DNA from: an uncultured Pelagibacteraceae bacterium
Lineage (GTDB): Bacteria > Pseudomonadota > Alphaproteobacteria > Pelagibacterales > Pelagibacteraceae
Assembly: GCA_902524535.1 (NCBI GenBank)
Contig: CABZDR010000001.1
Coordinates: 248,001-312,000 of the forward strand
DNA: 64,000 nucleotides
Direction: 5' to 3'
Below are positions 10,374 through 37,938 of the stretch, piece by piece. The translations under genes were made by a program, and so were the position numbers. Each line of letters starts with the position of its first letter. Within the stretch, counting starts at the first letter, position 1. The notes under the pieces were generated by a model, which searched no databases, had not been told where the DNA came from, and saw only the letters and a program-made list of their open reading frames with translations.

Positions 10374-10896
10374 TTTTTTTACTATTATACTTTTTCATCC
10401 AATCACCAAATATTTTTATAGCATCTTCCATATCCTCAGTTTTGTTGGGATGGTTCTTTGCTCTACCCAGCATGGTTGCAATAACATTTACCTGATACTT
10501 AATTGGACGATTTTTAATAGTTTTAATTGTGTAAAGAGCTTTTTCCTTATTTTTGAATCCTAACCCATGAGTAGTAGTTTTAGGGTTATAATCTGAATAC
10601 AGCGATAAATTTATAGGTTTAGATCTTTTACTTAATGGCATTTTGTCTATAATTTTAAAAATTATTTTATAATTAAGTTTATTCATCTTCTTTTTGGATT
10701 TGCCGTCAAAACCAATTAAATCAATTGATGATTTTTCCTGTTTATTAATTCTACAAATTAATTTTACAGATCTTTTATGAAAATCTTTTATTTTATCTTG
10801 ATATATTTTTTTCGTCTCCTGATAAATTCTATCCTTATAGCTTGTTGTAGAAACAAGTAAAATTCTACTTTTCCATTTGTACTTTCCTAAGTTCAT
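10354..10896 (-). CDS. DUF4174-like protein with extra C-terminal region
   Basis: 180-aa cytoplasmic protein. The first about 75 residues ([15 protein letters not shown], later [14 protein letters not shown]) resemble DUF4174, a small thioredoxin-fold-like domain: an aromatic, Arg and LLV strand followed by a late IGFDG turn. The rest ([50 protein letters not shown]) is a separate helical region that I do not recognise. There is no signal peptide, unlike many DUF4174 proteins. Its start overlaps the DUF2256 stop by 4 bp (ATGA), and its end overlaps the FG-GAP gene by 20 bp. The DUF4174 call is tentative. Confidence 0.62.
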
Positions 10897-11024
10897 ATTT
10901 TTTTACTAGAACATCTTTTAGAGCAATACTTAACTTTTTCCCAATTCAATCTCCATTTCTTACGCCAAACAAAAGGTCTTTTACAAACAGGACATGTTTT
11001 AAAAGGGAGTTGATTTTTTTTCAT
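10893..11024 (-). CDS. DUF2256 zinc-ribbon-like small protein
   Basis: 43-aa protein read by hand from the minus strand. It contains [19 protein letters not shown] (6-24) followed by [11 protein letters not shown] (28-38). C11, C14, C34 and C38 form a CxxC...CxxxC set expected to bind zinc. This is the signature of DUF2256, a tiny family often encoded beside cryptochrome/photolyase genes. Its TGA overlaps the next ATG (ATGA, 10893-10896), a clear sign of translational coupling with the DUF4174-like gene. A photolyase homologue lies 3 kb upstream on the same strand, separated by the 11069-14123 island. Confidence 0.88.
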
Positions 11025-11068
11025 TTTTTTAGACTTGAAAAATTATAAATCGTTTTTACATAATTTCT

Positions 11069-12172
11069 ATGAATAATGAGTTATCAACTAAAAAAGAACC
11101 TCAAAAAAAAGAAGAAGATTTCCAATTTTTAATAGATAACTATCTAAATTTTAATCAACAAAAAGCTGTTGAGCTGTGGTTTGAAAGAGTTGAACAATCA
11201 CCACATGAACCTGCAAAATTTTTTCCGAACCAAAATTCAAACACATACTACATACAACTTAATGCAATATTAAGAGGACTAAGAATTAAAAGAAAAAAAA
11301 CAATTATAGATCATTTTAAAAATTTATATTTGGTATCAGCTAAAGAAAATCTTAATTTTACAATAGAGGATCTAAAAAATTGTGTTGAAAATTATATACC
11401 CTCAACAAAACCAATTAATAGATCCATGAAATCTAAGAAAATAAATAAATCCAAAATAGTAAACATAGAAGATAAAAAAGATAATTTAGATAGTACTAAT
11501 AATGATGAAATTGATAATGAAATTACTTTTGAGGAAATTTGGGATGAAATTGGTGACCTTAGTTTTGGAAATGATTTACTTGAAGAGATACAAAAAAACT
11601 TAATTTCTAGCGTGCATCAGAATGTTTCAGATGATATTTTACCTTTCTTAAAAGATGAAGTTGGAGATCCTCGTTTAGAATTCAAAAAAAATAATCATCG
11701 AGTATTTCAAACTGAATTCGATACTGATGAAATAAATGATATTGAAACTGTCAACTTGATAGCTGAACTTTCTTCAATTTTAGATAAAAAAGCTGAAATG
11801 ATCATAAATGAGAATGGAATTCTTAAAAAATTAATTTTTCAAACATCCGACGAAAGAATAAAATGCAAAATTAGAGGTTTTGAAATCGTTAAAAAGCTAA
11901 GAAAAAAAGGGATTAAAATTTCTTTATTTAACGATATCATGAGTAACATAAATTTTAATTCTGATATTCAAAAACCATCAGCTCAAAATATGCCTAATTT
12001 AATGACAATAATTACAAATATAAATATCCAAACATTTTTCACTATAACTTTTGGTAGAAAGCAATTCTTATCACCCGCAAGTGGAAACCTAAATACAACT
12101 ATTAATGAACATGCAAAAAAAATTGCAGGTTTAATAGAAGCTCAAACATCATGGGGACGACCAGTCAAATAA
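11069..12172 (+). CDS. Protein of unknown function (367 aa) at the island edge
   Basis: 367-aa soluble protein with no family I recognise. Residues 1-100 are a mixed alpha/beta or helical segment containing FNQQKAVELWFERVEQ and YYIQLNAILRGLRIKRKK. Residues about 105-155 are a Lys/Asp/Asn-rich, low-complexity linker. Residues 155-367 are an acidic domain (EEIWDEIGDLSFGNDLLEEIQ) ending TSWGRPVK. It is divergent from the DUF2256 gene with only 44 bp between starts. It is followed immediately by a 20-bp tandem repeat. Composition matches the host, unlike the three-gene operon that follows. Confidence 0.65.
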   Translation: MNNELSTKKEPQKKEEDFQFLIDNYLNFNQQKAVELWFERVEQSPHEPAKFFPNQNSNTYYIQLNAILRGLRIKRKKTIIDHFKNLYLVSAKENLNFTIEDLKNCVENYIPSTKPINRSMKSKKINKSKIVNIEDKKDNLDSTNNDEIDNEITFEEIWDEIGDLSFGNDLLEEIQKNLISSVHQNVSDDILPFLKDEVGDPRLEFKKNNHRVFQTEFDTDEINDIETVNLIAELSSILDKKAEMIINENGILKKLIFQTSDERIKCKIRGFEIVKKLRKKGIKISLFNDIMSNINFNSDIQKPSAQNMPNLMTIITNINIQTFFTITFGRKQFLSPASGNLNTTINEHAKKIAGLIEAQTSWGRPVK

Positions 12173-12242
12173 CAGTTTTACAATTCCTTCACGATTCCTA
12201 ACAATCTCTCACAGTTCCTAACAATCTCTCACAGTTCCTAAC
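12172..12242. repeat. 20-bp direct tandem repeat
   Basis: Unit acagttcctaacaatctctc. Clear copies are at 12191-12210 (two mismatches) and 12211-12230, with a partial copy at 12231-12242. A degenerate copy at about 12172-12190 touches the stop codon of the 367-aa gene. Units are head to tail with no spacers, so this is not a CRISPR array. It could be an iteron-like protein-binding array, a recombination scar or a simple expansion. Confidence 0.75.
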
Positions 12243-12270
12243 TTCATTAATTAAAAAAAAAAATTAAATG

Positions 12271-12360
12271 TATTAGCGCAGCAGTGGGATATTAACCCTG
12301 AGCAACACCCAGACCCGCTGTCCTGTCATTGCTTTCTTTCATCTGGGTGTTGCCAATAAG
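12271..12360 (+). ncRNA. Candidate structured leader or small RNA upstream of the nuclease operon
   Basis: By hand count 44 of 90 bases are G or C, far above the surrounding sequence. A perfect 12-bp stem pairs gcaacacccaga (12302-12313) with tctgggtgttgc (12342-12353) around a 28-nt loop. A smaller hairpin, GGG-ATATTAA-CCC (12286-12298), precedes it. The 3' arm ends 15 nt before the ATG at 12369, next to the AAGGA ribosome-binding site. This fits a regulatory 5' leader; a separate small RNA or a DNA-level site is also possible. It does not match a riboswitch class that I know. Confidence 0.45.
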
Positions 12361-12368
12361 GAAAAAAA

Positions 12369-12713
12369 ATGAGTACACAAGACAAACTTTTACCTGCTGT
12401 TATTCCATTCCCAGCAGATATAAGCGAAGAAATCAAAAATGGTAAACAGGAGGAAAAGCTGGATGTTAATATTCAAACAGTTGCAGTTCCTGAAGAAATA
12501 CTATCAGACCCAGATATGTGGATGCCACAGCTTTTAAAAAAGATTGAAAAAGCTTTTGCACCAAATTTAGGTTACGATAATCAAAACAAGTTGGCGTTAT
12601 CACTACCTCTAATAAGAGAAATTAGAGGTGATTATAAATCAAAGAGAATGATGATTTCAATTATTGCAGTTGATGTTTCACCAGTAATTAGGGAGGAGGC
12701 AATCTATGAGTAA
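12369..12713 (+). CDS. Protein of unknown function, first gene of nuclease operon
   Basis: 114-aa soluble protein, not recognised. The N-terminal 40 residues are polar and proline-containing (PAVIPFPADI). The C-terminal part has a helix, WMPQLLKKIEKAFAP, then a GYDNQNKLALSLPLIREIRG region and a hydrophobic strand, MMISIIAVDVSPVI. The start ATG at 12369 has AAGGA 8 bases upstream. It overlaps the GIY-YIG gene by 8 bp, so the products are probably made together. Its role is unknown; association with two nuclease-type proteins suggests DNA metabolism or defence, which is inference only. Confidence 0.68.
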   Translation: MSTQDKLLPAVIPFPADISEEIKNGKQEEKLDVNIQTVAVPEEILSDPDMWMPQLLKKIEKAFAPNLGYDNQNKLALSLPLIREIRGDYKSKRMMISIIAVDVSPVIREEAIYE

Positions 12714-13407
12714 TAAAGATAATTGGACTGCCTGGAAGCGTGACTCGCATTTCAGACTAACTGAGCCGAGTATAACAATTTATAAGGATGGCATTACTTT
12801 TAATGCCTCCTTAAATAAGATTGTAGATGTCTCGAAGTTTATGAATGTAATGGTAGAGTTAAATGATCCTGATAATGAGAAGGCTACTAAGGTTAGATGT
12901 GTTCTCAATAACTTAGAGGAGAGCGATAGCAACTTTAAGATCACAAGATCTAGAAACTCAGAAGATCATCGAAGAGGCTTTGTCTCATGTCGTAATCTAA
13001 TCCAATTTCAACCAAGGCTGAAAAAAATAAGTGACAATAAACGATCAGCAAGAAGAATAGAGGTCAAACAATTTGGAAGGGACGCAAATTCATTTGTGTT
13101 TAATCTAATACCTTGTTTTGAGTTAGCTTCAACTGATACAGTTGAACTTCCAACTGAAGCTGGTATTTATCGTTACATGGACAAAGCTGAAGTTGTTTAT
13201 ATTGGAAGAGGAAAATCAATTAAATCAAGATCCAAAGATTTACAAAGAAGTAACTGGGTTTTTGATAAAATTGAATACTCTTTAATATCAGATGAAAAAG
13301 ATCAGGTGTTCTGGGAAAGTAAATTTCTTGAAGACTTTAAATTAGAGTTTGGACGTTTGCCTAGATATAATGAACAAGCTGGTGCAACAATTCATCAACT
13401 AAATTAG
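12706..13407 (+). CDS. GIY-YIG nuclease-domain protein
   Basis: 233-aa protein with a C-terminal GIY-YIG domain (about 150-226). The GIY is at 153-155 and YIG at 165-167, followed by basic residues R168, K170 and R175. The putative metal-binding Glu is E204 (FWESKFLEDF) and the late Asn is N222 (PRYNEQAG), so the catalytic set looks complete. Residues 1-145 are a novel N-terminal region rich in beta-type segments and Arg/Lys, possibly for DNA or target binding. A strong Shine-Dalgarno, GGGAGGAGG, lies just before the start, stronger than in most genes here. By hand count 113 of 300 bases at 12721-13020 are G or C, above the local average. Endonuclease activity is predicted, not shown. Confidence 0.78.
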   Translation: MSNKDNWTAWKRDSHFRLTEPSITIYKDGITFNASLNKIVDVSKFMNVMVELNDPDNEKATKVRCVLNNLEESDSNFKITRSRNSEDHRRGFVSCRNLIQFQPRLKKISDNKRSARRIEVKQFGRDANSFVFNLIPCFELASTDTVELPTEAGIYRYMDKAEVVYIGRGKSIKSRSKDLQRSNWVFDKIEYSLISDEKDQVFWESKFLEDFKLEFGRLPRYNEQAGATIHQLN

Positions 13408-13415
13408 GAGATCTT

Positions 13416-14123
13416 ATGAGTGAAATATTTAAATTAAGCCCCTCTGATTTTGGCTTTTTGTATGATGAATGCAAAAGATGTTTTTATTTAAAGGTGAAAC
13501 ATAACTTCAGCAGGCCAAGAAGTATAATGCCAAGTATTTTTATTAAAATAGATGGCATTATGAAAGATTACTTTGAAGGAAAATCACCAAAAGATATAAC
13601 AGCTGAATTACCAGATGGTAAAGTTGAATTTGGTGATAGATGGATTCAGTCAAAACCCTTTTTAGATAAAAAAACTGGCAACAGATGTTTTATAAAAGGA
13701 AAGACTGATACAGTGCTTGGTTTCAATGACAACACATATGGTGTTGTTGATTTCAAGACCTCAAATGTAAAAGATGGTAATGTAGAAAAATATTCAAGAC
13801 AGCTGCATGCCTATTCTCTTGCTCTTGAAAATGCTGAACCAGGTAAACCTTCACTTAAACCAATATCAAGAATTGGATTATTTGTAGTTGAACCAAACTT
13901 ATTTTTGAAGAATGAGAACAACGAGTATCTCTTTAAAAATATTGTTAAGTGGCAAGAAATCCCAAGAAACGATATTGGTTTCTTTGACTTTTTGAGAGAG
14001 GTTATGTCACTCCTATCACAAAACAAAATACCTGAGGCAGGTCCTTACTGTTCTCATTGTGAATATATCAAAAAAAATAAACTAAATAATTTTGATAATT
14101 TCAATAATAAATTAGCAAGCTAA
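13416..14123 (+). CDS. PD-(D/E)XK nuclease, Cas4/RecB-like, with four cysteines
   Basis: 235-aa protein of the PD-(D/E)XK superfamily. The core motifs are D98 (in GKTDTV), D112-F-K114 (in YGVVDFKTS) and the RecB-type RQLHAYSLAL helix (128-137) with Q129 and Y133. C19 and C22 near the N-terminus and C212 and C215 near the C-terminus (DECKRC, YCSHC) recall the split four-cysteine iron-sulfur site of Cas4 and AddB nucleases. No cas1 or cas2 gene or CRISPR array is nearby. It starts 8 bp after the GIY-YIG stop with a good AGGAG site, and a terminator hairpin follows. Single-strand exonuclease activity is a family-based expectation. Confidence 0.8.
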   Translation: MSEIFKLSPSDFGFLYDECKRCFYLKVKHNFSRPRSIMPSIFIKIDGIMKDYFEGKSPKDITAELPDGKVEFGDRWIQSKPFLDKKTGNRCFIKGKTDTVLGFNDNTYGVVDFKTSNVKDGNVEKYSRQLHAYSLALENAEPGKPSLKPISRIGLFVVEPNLFLKNENNEYLFKNIVKWQEIPRNDIGFFDFLREVMSLLSQNKIPEAGPYCSHCEYIKKNKLNNFDNFNNKLAS

Positions 14124-14130
14124 ATTTTTG

Positions 14131-14150
14131 GTGCCCAGTAAAATGGGCAC
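14131..14150. terminator. Bidirectional intrinsic terminator
   Basis: Perfect 7-bp stem gtgccca / tgggcac with a 6-nt loop, flanked by a T-rich stretch on one side (aaatttttg before) and A/T-rich sequence on the other. It lies between the convergent nuclease operon and photolyase-like gene and can serve both. Confidence 0.75.
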
Positions 14151-36333: not shown

Positions 36334-37938
36334 ATGATTTATATAAATCGTTTTTTTTTTGGTTTTTATAATCAATTAAGAAAATTTTACTTATATAGCA
36401 AAATTTACAACAAAAAAATTTCAAAATTTAATACCAAAGATTTAGTTTATAAACCTAGCCCTCACCTACTTTCATCAATTATTAAATACAATAAAAAAAA
36501 ATTCAAAATTGAAAATTTCTCATTAAAAGAAATTTGGAACAATGAAAATATAAACGATAAAGAATTCAAAAACCTAAATAATTTTTATTGGTTTTTTAGT
36601 TTAGACCTAAAGTCCTCAAAAAAAGAAGTGCAATCAGTTATTTCAGATTGGATTAAGAGAAATTATAGTTACAATGATAAATGTTGGAGCTTTGATCTTA
36701 TAGCTAAAAGAATTATTTCTTGGCTTTCAAATCATAATTTGTCTTATGACGGAAGTGATCAAGATTATAAAAGTAATTTCAACAAAATAATTTTTAAACA
36801 AACGAACCATCTTATAAATGAGGTCAATAAATCCAAAACGCTAGATGATAAATTAACCTGTTGTGCCTCAATTATTTTAGTCGGTCTTTGTTATCAAGAA
36901 AAAAAATATCTCTCTTTTGGAATATCTCTTCTAAAAAAGATAACAAAATTGTCTTTAGAAAATTCTGGATTTCCAAAATCTAGAAATATAAAGCAATTAA
37001 TTTTTTACCTAAAATATTTTATTTTAATCAGAGAATGGTTCAAAGAGTCCCAAATTAGTGTACCAGAACATGTTGACGAAACAATTTATCTCCTTGGCCA
37101 AGGGTATGCTTTTATTTGGCAAAATACAGGTTCTGATTTTTTGTTTAATGGTAATAATTTATCAAATAACCATGATTTCGATAATTATTTAAAAAAATTA
37201 GGTTATAAATTTAAAAATGATGATCAGGAATTTGGTGGATATACGATTTTAAAGAATAAAAAAACTTGCTTGATAATCGACTCTGGATCCTCTCCTGAGT
37301 ATAAATTTTCTAAAGATTACCAGTCAGGAGTTTTATCGTTTGAAATAGTTTCTAATGGAAAAAAATTAATTAGTAATTGCGGTTACTATAAAAAGAATAT
37401 CAAACTTAATAAGTTGTCAAAATCTTCGGCTGCCCAAAGTACATTAATAATTGATGATAGCTCCTCTTGTAAATTTATAAAAATTGACAAATCATTGATG
37501 TTGGAAAAAAGTATAAAAATTTTAAAAAAGGAAATTGTTTTTGAAAAAGATTATTGGAAAGTAAATTTTTCACACGATGGGTACTTAAAAAAATATAATT
37601 CTATTCATGAAAGGCAAATTGAATTTTATCCAAACAAAATGACTTTTATAGGGGTGGATAAAATAATTAGAAAAAAATCAAACTTTAATTATAAATTTGA
37701 TATTAGATTTCATATGGAGCCAGGTGTTAAATTAATGAAAACTCAAGATAATAAAACAATACTAATAGAATTAGAAGATGAGGGATGGAGATTTACGTGT
37801 GATAATTATGATATAAATATTGATAATGGCTTATATTTCGGTAATAAAAATTTATATAGTGGAAATCAAAATATTTTTATCTCAGGAATTTCTAATAATT
37901 TAGAAGAAAATATAAAGTGGGAAATAAAACAAATATGA
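36334..37938 (+). CDS. Heparinase II/III-like protein
   Basis: 534-aa protein of the heparinase II/III family: an N-terminal alpha/alpha-toroid (about 50-260; WSFDLIAKRIISWLSNH, FPKSRNIKQLIFYLKYFIL) followed by a beta-sandwich (about 300-530; DSGSSPEYKFSKDYQSGVLSFE, LISNCGYY, FSHDGY). Family lyases cleave uronic-acid polysaccharides. A membrane or secretion signal is not clear. In many alphaproteobacteria a gene of this family sits between rpe and purH, as here, and its role in that fixed position is unknown. Its TGA overlaps the purH ATG (ATGA, 37935-37938). Confidence 0.85.
   Translation: MIYINRFFFGFYNQLRKFYLYSKIYNKKISKFNTKDLVYKPSPHLLSSIIKYNKKKFKIENFSLKEIWNNENINDKEFKNLNNFYWFFSLDLKSSKKEVQSVISDWIKRNYSYNDKCWSFDLIAKRIISWLSNHNLSYDGSDQDYKSNFNKIIFKQTNHLINEVNKSKTLDDKLTCCASIILVGLCYQEKKYLSFGISLLKKITKLSLENSGFPKSRNIKQLIFYLKYFILIREWFKESQISVPEHVDETIYLLGQGYAFIWQNTGSDFLFNGNNLSNNHDFDNYLKKLGYKFKNDDQEFGGYTILKNKKTCLIIDSGSSPEYKFSKDYQSGVLSFEIVSNGKKLISNCGYYKKNIKLNKLSKSSAAQSTLIIDDSSSCKFIKIDKSLMLEKSIKILKKEIVFEKDYWKVNFSHDGYLKKYNSIHERQIEFYPNKMTFIGVDKIIRKKSNFNYKFDIRFHMEPGVKLMKTQDNKTILIELEDEGWRFTCDNYDINIDNGLYFGNKNLYSGNQNIFISGISNNLEENIKWEIKQI

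Follow-up and report, generated by a model that had tools for sequence, protein, structure and literature searches.

A patchy SAR11 nuclease cassette with a pseudoknotted leader and a replaceable front end looks like an undescribed defense-type switch

Introduction

SAR11 bacteria are among the most abundant bacteria and are heavily infected by phages, and to our knowledge little is understood of how their streamlined genomes resist them. We analyzed a window of 64,000 nt from an uncultured Pelagibacteraceae bacterium (assembly GCA_902524535.1, contig CABZDR010000001.1, positions 248,001 to 312,000), in which an accessory unit carries a gene for a variable protein (A), a structured leader RNA, a gene for a small protein (B), a gene for a GIY-YIG protein (C) and a gene for a PD-(D/E)XK nuclease (D). 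The recurrent core of this cassette is A, the leader, B and C. Among related loci C stays nearly constant while very different versions take the place of gene A, usually together with the leader and at times also with B. The leader, which precedes B, is a pseudoknot conserved between the window and four relatives. Judged from sequence, the cassette, which occurs in a few percent of the sampled SAR11 genomes, looks like an undescribed defense-type switch. What is most interesting about it, namely its pseudoknotted leader and its replaceable front end, goes beyond what an earlier reading of the sequence alone (the sequence-only reading) had seen. The features are as follows, in window coordinates, with the edges of the unit accurate to a few tens of bases:

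11025..14146, no strand: accessory unit, ~3.1 kb
11069..12172, + strand: gene A, variable protein of 367 aa
12195..12242, no strand: 20-bp tandem repeat, 2.4 copies
12282..12353, + strand: leader RNA, H-type pseudoknot, upstream of gene B
12369..12713, + strand: gene B, small protein of 114 aa, with an 8-nt overlap with the start of C
12706..13407, + strand: gene C, 233 aa, GIY-YIG domain at about 136-224
13416..14123, + strand: gene D, 235 aa, Cas4/RecB-like PD-(D/E)XK nuclease
10893..11024, - strand: left flank, Cys-rich open reading frame (ORF) of 43 aa
14150..15640, - strand: right flank, photolyase-related gene (DPRP)

The unit is accessory and its core recurs

In the related genome G636 (locus L136) the same neighbors were found and all four genes of the unit were absent, the protein of the presumed argG gene being 98% identical. 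Homology between the window and this locus ends near 11025 and restarts near 14146, and in the empty site the start of the 43-aa Cys-rich ORF (presumably a DUF2256 protein), whose start codon forms the left edge of the unit, adjoins the photolyase stop. Since G636 keeps the neighbors and lacks all four genes, this pair, the one compared, differs by the unit as a whole, in line with the island idea of the sequence-only reading.

Genome counts, which throughout include the genome of the window, gave the same picture. Gene C was detected in 21 of 397 family genomes by a profile search at E<=1e-8 (two of them with fragments only) and in 13 of 197 by a single-protein search (three being weak, with internal stops), D in 37 of 197 at E<=0.001, with many weak matches, B in 3 of 197, and A in 1 of 197, the genome of the window itself. 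From these counts the unit is accessory and not core, and with C and D at such frequencies it is not a gene set of nearly all SAR11 genomes; nor did it map to a known repair operon. The accessory island between conserved genes that had been proposed is thus borne out. When the C profile was searched against 398 genomes of the phylum, 233 matched; among the matches listed, one convincing relative was found beyond the family (G348), and nearly all the others were frames of ~600-800 aa, the size of UvrC.

We examined 24 distinct C loci (two C fragments were left out, and L122, which is the same locus as L132, was dropped from the count). The order A-B-C was observed in 18 of them (the window, L128-L132, L048, L049, L125, L051, L052, L053, L055, L056, L119, L120, L121 and L123), so that A, which had been called an orphan, belongs with the operon. 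In L049 A is cut by the contig end and in L055 it is split into two ORFs; in L131, L048, L049, L051, L053, L056 and L120, where A clusters with nothing else, it was assigned by position. The order was not seen in L050, L054, L118, L124, L126 and L127. Gene D follows C in nine loci (the window, L128-L132, L048, L049 and L125) and is also found without C. Hence, the pairing of two nuclease folds is real in the window but is not the constant core. In related lineages the modules return at a small number of shared sites, and in the argG region the unit is inserted at about four different positions across genomes. We refer to argG-region modules with a window-type B as type I, and to those at the recA and mnmG sites, which have the other B clusters, as type II. 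Profile comparison of the two types gave probabilities of 1.6% for A and 3.9% for B, and kinship between the types is therefore not claimed for either protein.

The four ORFs (367, 114, 233 and 235 aa) lie where the sequence-only reading had placed them, and none of them is an integrase, a transposase, cas1 or cas2, as it had also noted. That reading had taken a higher GC content as a sign of transfer. Its count of 113 G or C in the 300 bases at 12721-13020 is exact; among sliding windows, 3.5% of the 1274 that span 300 nt and 11% of the 623 that span 1755 nt, as B to D do, have a GC as high, and genes of at least 100 aa in the 64,000-nt window range from 0.205 to 0.391. The GC is therefore weak evidence of transfer. 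The quoted Shine-Dalgarno sites of C and D are correct, but their strength also lies within the range of the window, and the argument for transfer drawn from it is equally weak.

Several further observations were made around these loci. The region between two conserved genes, argG (4218) and a 281-aa gene (22842), is a general accessory hotspot, the gene content of which varies among the 18 relatives compared. Genes of the C type lie directly beside rmuC (named from Pfam) in L050:7322-9165 and L127:6519-8431, another recurrent site of the family, and near a presumed sbcB-like gene. In L124:7535-8650 (G658) a C-type gene lies beside an additional, incomplete copy of the 3' end of an SDR gene (presumably fabI-like), as if an insertion had duplicated that end. 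The Rfam SAR11_0636 small RNA is found a few kb from recA-region modules (L119:4042-4131, L120:11521-11610 and L053:3666-3755). In addition, a separate island (L058:7942-13638 and L061:2754-7905) combines a D-type PD-(D/E)XK gene, a 98-aa ORF, a protein of ~850 aa with a weak Castor/Pollux match, and differing GIY-YIG proteins, one of them LEM-3-like (L061); D-type genes thus accompany other GIY-YIG genes too.

The front end is exchanged while C stays

In five pairs of loci C is shared and A differs beyond direct recognition. In L119 and L120 (genomes G626 and G692) the flanks are 0.96-1.00 identical (0.91 in the first, partial comparison window), the C proteins are identical, and the A-leader-B segment shows no similarity (0.43-0.53). 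The swapped segment runs from ~115 nt before A to ~20 nt before C, and neither the A nor the B proteins gave a blastp hit to each other. Between the window and L128, C is 99%, D 98%, B 83% and the photolyase 94% identical, no direct blastp hit was obtained between the two A proteins, and DNA homology restarts at ~12315, inside the pseudoknot, so that the 3' part of the leader still aligns. In L131 and L132, B-C-D and the flanks are 87-89% identical and A and the leader have no match, homology restarting at L131 5656, two bases past the end of its pseudoknot. L048 and L049 are 98.5% identical from 15 nt inside B onward, and again A and the leader are without a match (the A of L049 being represented by its last 92 aa). 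In L051 and L052 the flanks are 86-92% identical, and A and most of B are without a match. The reverse case was also observed, since in L128 and L130 the A proteins are 96% identical and the leaders agree at 193 of 204 positions, whereas the DNA of C is only 0.69-0.85 identical. These comparisons indicated that A and the leader travel together in most cases, L051/L052 being the exception, and that B accompanies now one side, now the other. In the older pairs, L131/L132 and L051/L052, rapid divergence of A alone could look like replacement; it is unlikely to be the cause in L119/L120, L048/L049 and window/L128, because C or the flanks are nearly unchanged there.

The leader forms an H-type pseudoknot

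The sequence-only reading had described a GC-rich hairpin leader before B. A structured leader is indeed present, but a plain hairpin does not account for it (knot-free folding gave z -1.0, no better than shuffles); it is an H-type pseudoknot, in which stem S1 pairs 12282-12288 with 12314-12320 and stem S2 pairs 12302-12313 with 12342-12353, with loop 1 at 12289-12301 and loop 3 at 12321-12341. The knot ends 15 nt before the ATG of B. Its energy is -43.3 kcal/mol, against -18.8 +/- 3.8 for shuffled sequences, and 0 of 60 shuffles reached it. The leaders of L128, L130, L129 and L131 share the window geometry, with 13-14 nt in loop 1 and S2a directly followed by S1b, and in each of them, too, 0 of 60 shuffles reached the energy of the knot; the energies of the window and the four relatives are -43.3, -39.1, -40.9, -39.1 and -31.3 kcal/mol, with shuffle means of -15.9 to -19.5. 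When each relative was compared with the window in register from the S2a/S1b junction, both bases were changed in 9-11 of 14-19 stem pairs and 4-8 pairs were unchanged; all pairs in the five leaders are Watson-Crick or G-U, none being non-canonical. The shape is thus kept although over half of the stem pairs differ from one relative to another. As L128 and L130 agree in 18 of 19 pairs and are nearly copies of each other, the leaders are effectively four distinct ones.

A scan of both strands of 785,290 bases from 53 sources (some of overlapping content), with limits set around the window geometry, returned 16 knots at -26 or better. The window, L130, L128 and L129 ranked 1-4 and L131 ranked 8th; two of these S2 stems, read on the opposite strand, gave ranks 5 and 6, and the knot at rank 7 lay on the strand opposite to argG in L141. 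No Rfam covariance model matched window positions 12150-12400 at E<=1, and the L129 leader had no Rfam match at gathering level.

The leaders of type II modules are of similar topology. Here a P1 hairpin has a loop that pairs with the strand immediately upstream of the Shine-Dalgarno site, and between these two elements there is another hairpin. In a bulge-free generic knot search only L053 (1/60 shuffles as good) and L055 (0/60) stood out among these leaders. The loop pairing, picked by eye, measures 6-10 bp in nine of nine leaders, and in a post hoc test 0-314 of 2000 letter shuffles were as good, L120 being the weakest. A covariance model built from five type II leaders, with the knot left out, was run over 35 sources and recovered the untrained L120 (E 9.4e-5) and L053 (E 0.0065); L119 (0.21) and L055 (1.6) did not stand out from chance hits, window 37219-37300 (0.029) for example. 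Across 297 genomes the model matched four, all at C modules. The type II leaders of L051, L056, L053, L120 and L119 gave no Rfam match at gathering level. The two leader layouts are put forward as candidate new structured RNAs.

A pseudoknot of variable stems directly upstream of protein genes recalls the type III toxin-antitoxin systems (ToxIN), and the knot might accordingly be read as an RNA inhibitor of a toxic protein. It is present as a single copy and not as a ToxI-like repeat array, and B has no family match, so that we regard this explanation as highly improbable.

Gene C encodes a GIY-YIG nuclease, and gene D adds a second nuclease fold

The GIY-YIG identity proposed for the 233-aa protein was confirmed by a match to UvrC models, by its fold and by its invariant residues. 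C matches UvrC models in NCBIfam (E 8.9e-5), and an AlphaFold2 model built from 22 sequences (mean predicted local distance difference test score, pLDDT, 84.5; predicted template modeling score 0.76) matched UvrC GIY-YIG domains in Foldseek (probability 1.00, E 2.6e-4). In structure comparison with VIA, residues of about 136-224 aligned with UvrC at Z 9.9 (root-mean-square deviation 2.2 over 78 residues), and EndoII (Z 8.1), I-TevI (Z 7.3) and PD-T4-3 (Z 4.9) followed; the top row was a plant Grx N-terminal domain (Z 11.3). All 22 C proteins carry Y155, G167, R175, Y191, E204, P219 and N222, whereas the second Tyr of YIG varies among them, and we take Y155, R175, E204 and N222 to be catalytic. 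By the fold of this model C is a member of the GIY-YIG nuclease superfamily. Pfam PF01541 matched 9 of the 22 homologues (best E 3.9e-8) and did not match the C of the window even at E<=10. The N-terminal domain is weakly MraZ-like (Z 3.6), which is a hint. A full-length UvrC was rejected for C (21.3 bits against a cut-off of 285), and another UvrC-model match, in an open frame of 626 aa, is found elsewhere in the genome of the window.

C could instead be a GIY-YIG homing-type endonuclease that spreads the cassette into empty sites as a selfish element, with A, B and the leader limiting its toxicity. The empty site without an integrase, the similarity of C to I-TevI (VIA Z 7.3) and the closer resemblance of window and L128 in C-D (~0.90-0.98) than in the right flank (~0.81-0.93) are in agreement with this. 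Homing would be expected to use one site, however, and the argG-region unit is found at about four different places; exchange of A and the leader while C stays is the reverse of what homing spreads, and modules in related lineages use the same small set of sites again. We consider a homing element unlikely.

For B no family match was found in Pfam, PHROGs, PADLOC or NCBIfam. In the window B adjoins and overlaps C and is acidic (isoelectric point 4.8), C being basic (9.0), as if C were the toxin, B the coupled antitoxin and A the regulator of an addiction module. B is not reliably acidic, its isoelectric point spanning 4.8-9.4 across loci, and the assignment of B as an antitoxin by charge was discarded as inconsistent. 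Furthermore, L119 and L120 combine an identical C with B proteins that lack a mutual blastp hit, which is unusual for a cognate pair, and D is an added nuclease; a toxin-antitoxin-like module is rather unlikely.

The 235-aa protein matches Pfam PDDEXK_1 (E 2e-8, above the family cut-off) and PADLOC Cas4 (E 6.7e-8), in agreement with the PD-(D/E)XK identity that had been given to it. Its sequence contains nuclease motif residues (D98, D112-x-K114 and Q129/Y133) and four Cys in Cas4-like positions (C19, C22, C212 and C215), the roles of these residues being presumed. As a curated cas4 it was rejected (23.6 bits against an NCBIfam cut-off of 65, and no cas1 or cas2 among the four ORFs).

The UvrC-like domain of C, the RecB-like D, the adjoining photolyase and the position of some C genes near recA or rmuC could also be accommodated by an accessory operon for repair or recombination with no role in conflict. 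The patchy presence and the swapped front end speak against it, as does L136, which has the photolyase without the unit, and we judge such an operon improbable.

Gene A is variable and may bind DNA

The model of A (pLDDT 71.3, from 8 sequences) has a helical N-terminus, a low-confidence linker at 108-150 and an alpha/beta C-terminus. No Pfam, PHROGs or PADLOC match was found at E<=1, one sub-threshold match was obtained in NCBIfam (E 0.07), and its fold had no Foldseek match at E<=0.001; HORMA-type Foldseek hits (E 0.015 and worse, template modeling score about 0.1) were set aside. The best VIA comparison reached Z 4.3. The modeled N-terminus is weakly helix-turn-helix (HTH)-like.

The 20-bp tandem repeat noted after A is present at 12195-12242 (TTCCTAACAATCTCTCACAG, 2.4 copies, 100%), and 0 of 500 letter shuffles matched the longest exact repeat after the window A; it may be an operator of A. 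The corresponding repeats were moderate in L131 (9/500 shuffles as good) and L132 (11/500), reached 27/500 in L129, and were not significant in L128 (377/500), L130 (183/500) and L048 (87/500). Within ~150 nt before A, inside the swapped segment, TGGCGTA palindromes were seen by eye in L119 and TTGCAAAT-like repeats in L120, and these may be operators of the respective A.

Discussion

The reading that we favor, to which we give about an even chance, is that of a regulated, defense-type nuclease cassette in SAR11 chromosomes whose control module can be exchanged. A would be a DNA-binding sensor or regulator acting through the short repeats on its own promoter and on the B-C(-D) operon; it is read so because it stands first in the unit, is usually swapped with the leader, and has short repeats nearby. 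The pseudoknot, which ends 13-24 nt before the start codon of B, sits where folded RNA would hinder 30S loading, and it may block ribosome loading until a signal opens it, the signal being A, another factor, or translation disturbed in infection. B could be an adapter or controller, and C the DNA-cutting effector, aided by D in some lineages and directed at foreign DNA or at the cell itself during phage attack. The front end would diversify because it detects or evades a changing opponent.

Defense, which the sequence-only reading had offered as one option, is favored on two grounds, the patchy, modular and diversifying character of the unit and the position of a distant C homologue beside defense-type genes; we infer the function from this pattern. 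A patchy nuclease cassette with a swapped control part and a constant enzyme is the pattern expected from an arms race. The divergent homologue is found in L054:6576-10242 (G152), between the genes of NurA (E 5e-6) and HerA (E 1.6e-28). A nearby AAA_15 ATPase gene resembles AriA and other defense ATPases, and the region is likely a defense island in SAR11. The other options of that reading fared less well, since a DNA-uptake role found no support and phage derivation found none in the searches either: A, C and D had no match in 50,697 phage records, and C and D had none in viral contigs by a search that detects close relatives only.

Several observations weigh against the favored reading. Among the C loci whose neighbors were scanned, defense-type neighbors were seen at one, L054, which itself lacks A and B, and the others that are named lie beside housekeeping genes (recA, mnmG and rmuC by Pfam, and presumably argG). 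PADLOC gave no model for A, B or C at E<=1 and matched D at superfamily level only. The HTH evidence for A is weak, consisting of a PrgX-like segment at residues 28-108 (VIA Z 3.7), an HTH_3 match (E 0.0013) in one of eight type II A proteins and an HTH_19 match (E 0.005) in the A of L055, and the repeats after A are clear in the window only. A strong knot is found in five of nine type I leaders: L125 has a weak one (5/60 shuffles as good), and the knot search gave no strong knot in L132, L048 and L049 (looser knots seen by eye in L132 and L125 were not counted). The four genomes matched by the type II model are all training loci. Finally, the leader is kept at 75% in L051/L052 though A and B differ, and the A proteins of the window and L128 are linked through L129 and L125 at 24-36% identity, so that they are remote relatives and not wholly foreign to each other.

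Nuclease cassettes are of a known kind, and there is an open route here to something categorically new. A constant GIY-YIG nuclease with interchangeable front ends, each an A with its own pseudoknotted RNA, might constitute a new immune or conflict locus, in which the RNA is possibly a working part of an A-B-C complex and populations renew specificity by cassette exchange at fixed loci. We think this bolder form of the defense reading doubtful. The cassette is a small, testable set of parts. Among the matches listed in the openly accessible literature, at the level of titles and starts of abstracts, no description of it was found, and it may be described elsewhere; as far as that literature shows, the compact, apparently undescribed system suggested from the sequence is borne out.

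When compared with known systems, C shares with GIY-YIG nucleases (the UvrC N-terminal domain, T4 EndoII, I-TevI and PD-T4-3) the fold and the invariant Tyr, Gly, Arg, Glu and Asn, but it has a different N-terminal domain and stands in an operon with A, the leader and B. Its similarity to PD-T4-3, a 5-hydroxymethylcytosine-specific nuclease according to the titles of its Protein Data Bank entries (see also PMC12923530), is only Z 4.9. D has the nuclease motif and the four Cys of Cas4/RecB-type PD-(D/E)XK nucleases; unlike Cas4, it is not accompanied by cas1 or cas2 among the four ORFs, and it stays at 23.6 of 65 bits on the NCBIfam cas4 model. The leader shares with the SAM-V and SAM-II riboswitches an H-type pseudoknot placed shortly before a start codon in SAR11, as reported for the SAM-V-type motif (PMC2704228). 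It differs from them in having no Rfam match at E<=1, in not lying beside methionine genes, and in that most of its stem pairs change between relatives. ToxIN likewise has a pseudoknot RNA upstream of protein genes, ToxI being given as 5.5 repeats of 36 nt (PMC5772629), whereas the unit has one knot without tandem RNA repeats, its 20-bp DNA repeat lying outside the knot, no ToxN-family match for B in the four family databases searched, and two to three protein genes after the leader. HerA-NurA defense operons are approached by the one distant C homologue between NurA and HerA genes in L054; the window unit itself contains neither HerA nor NurA.

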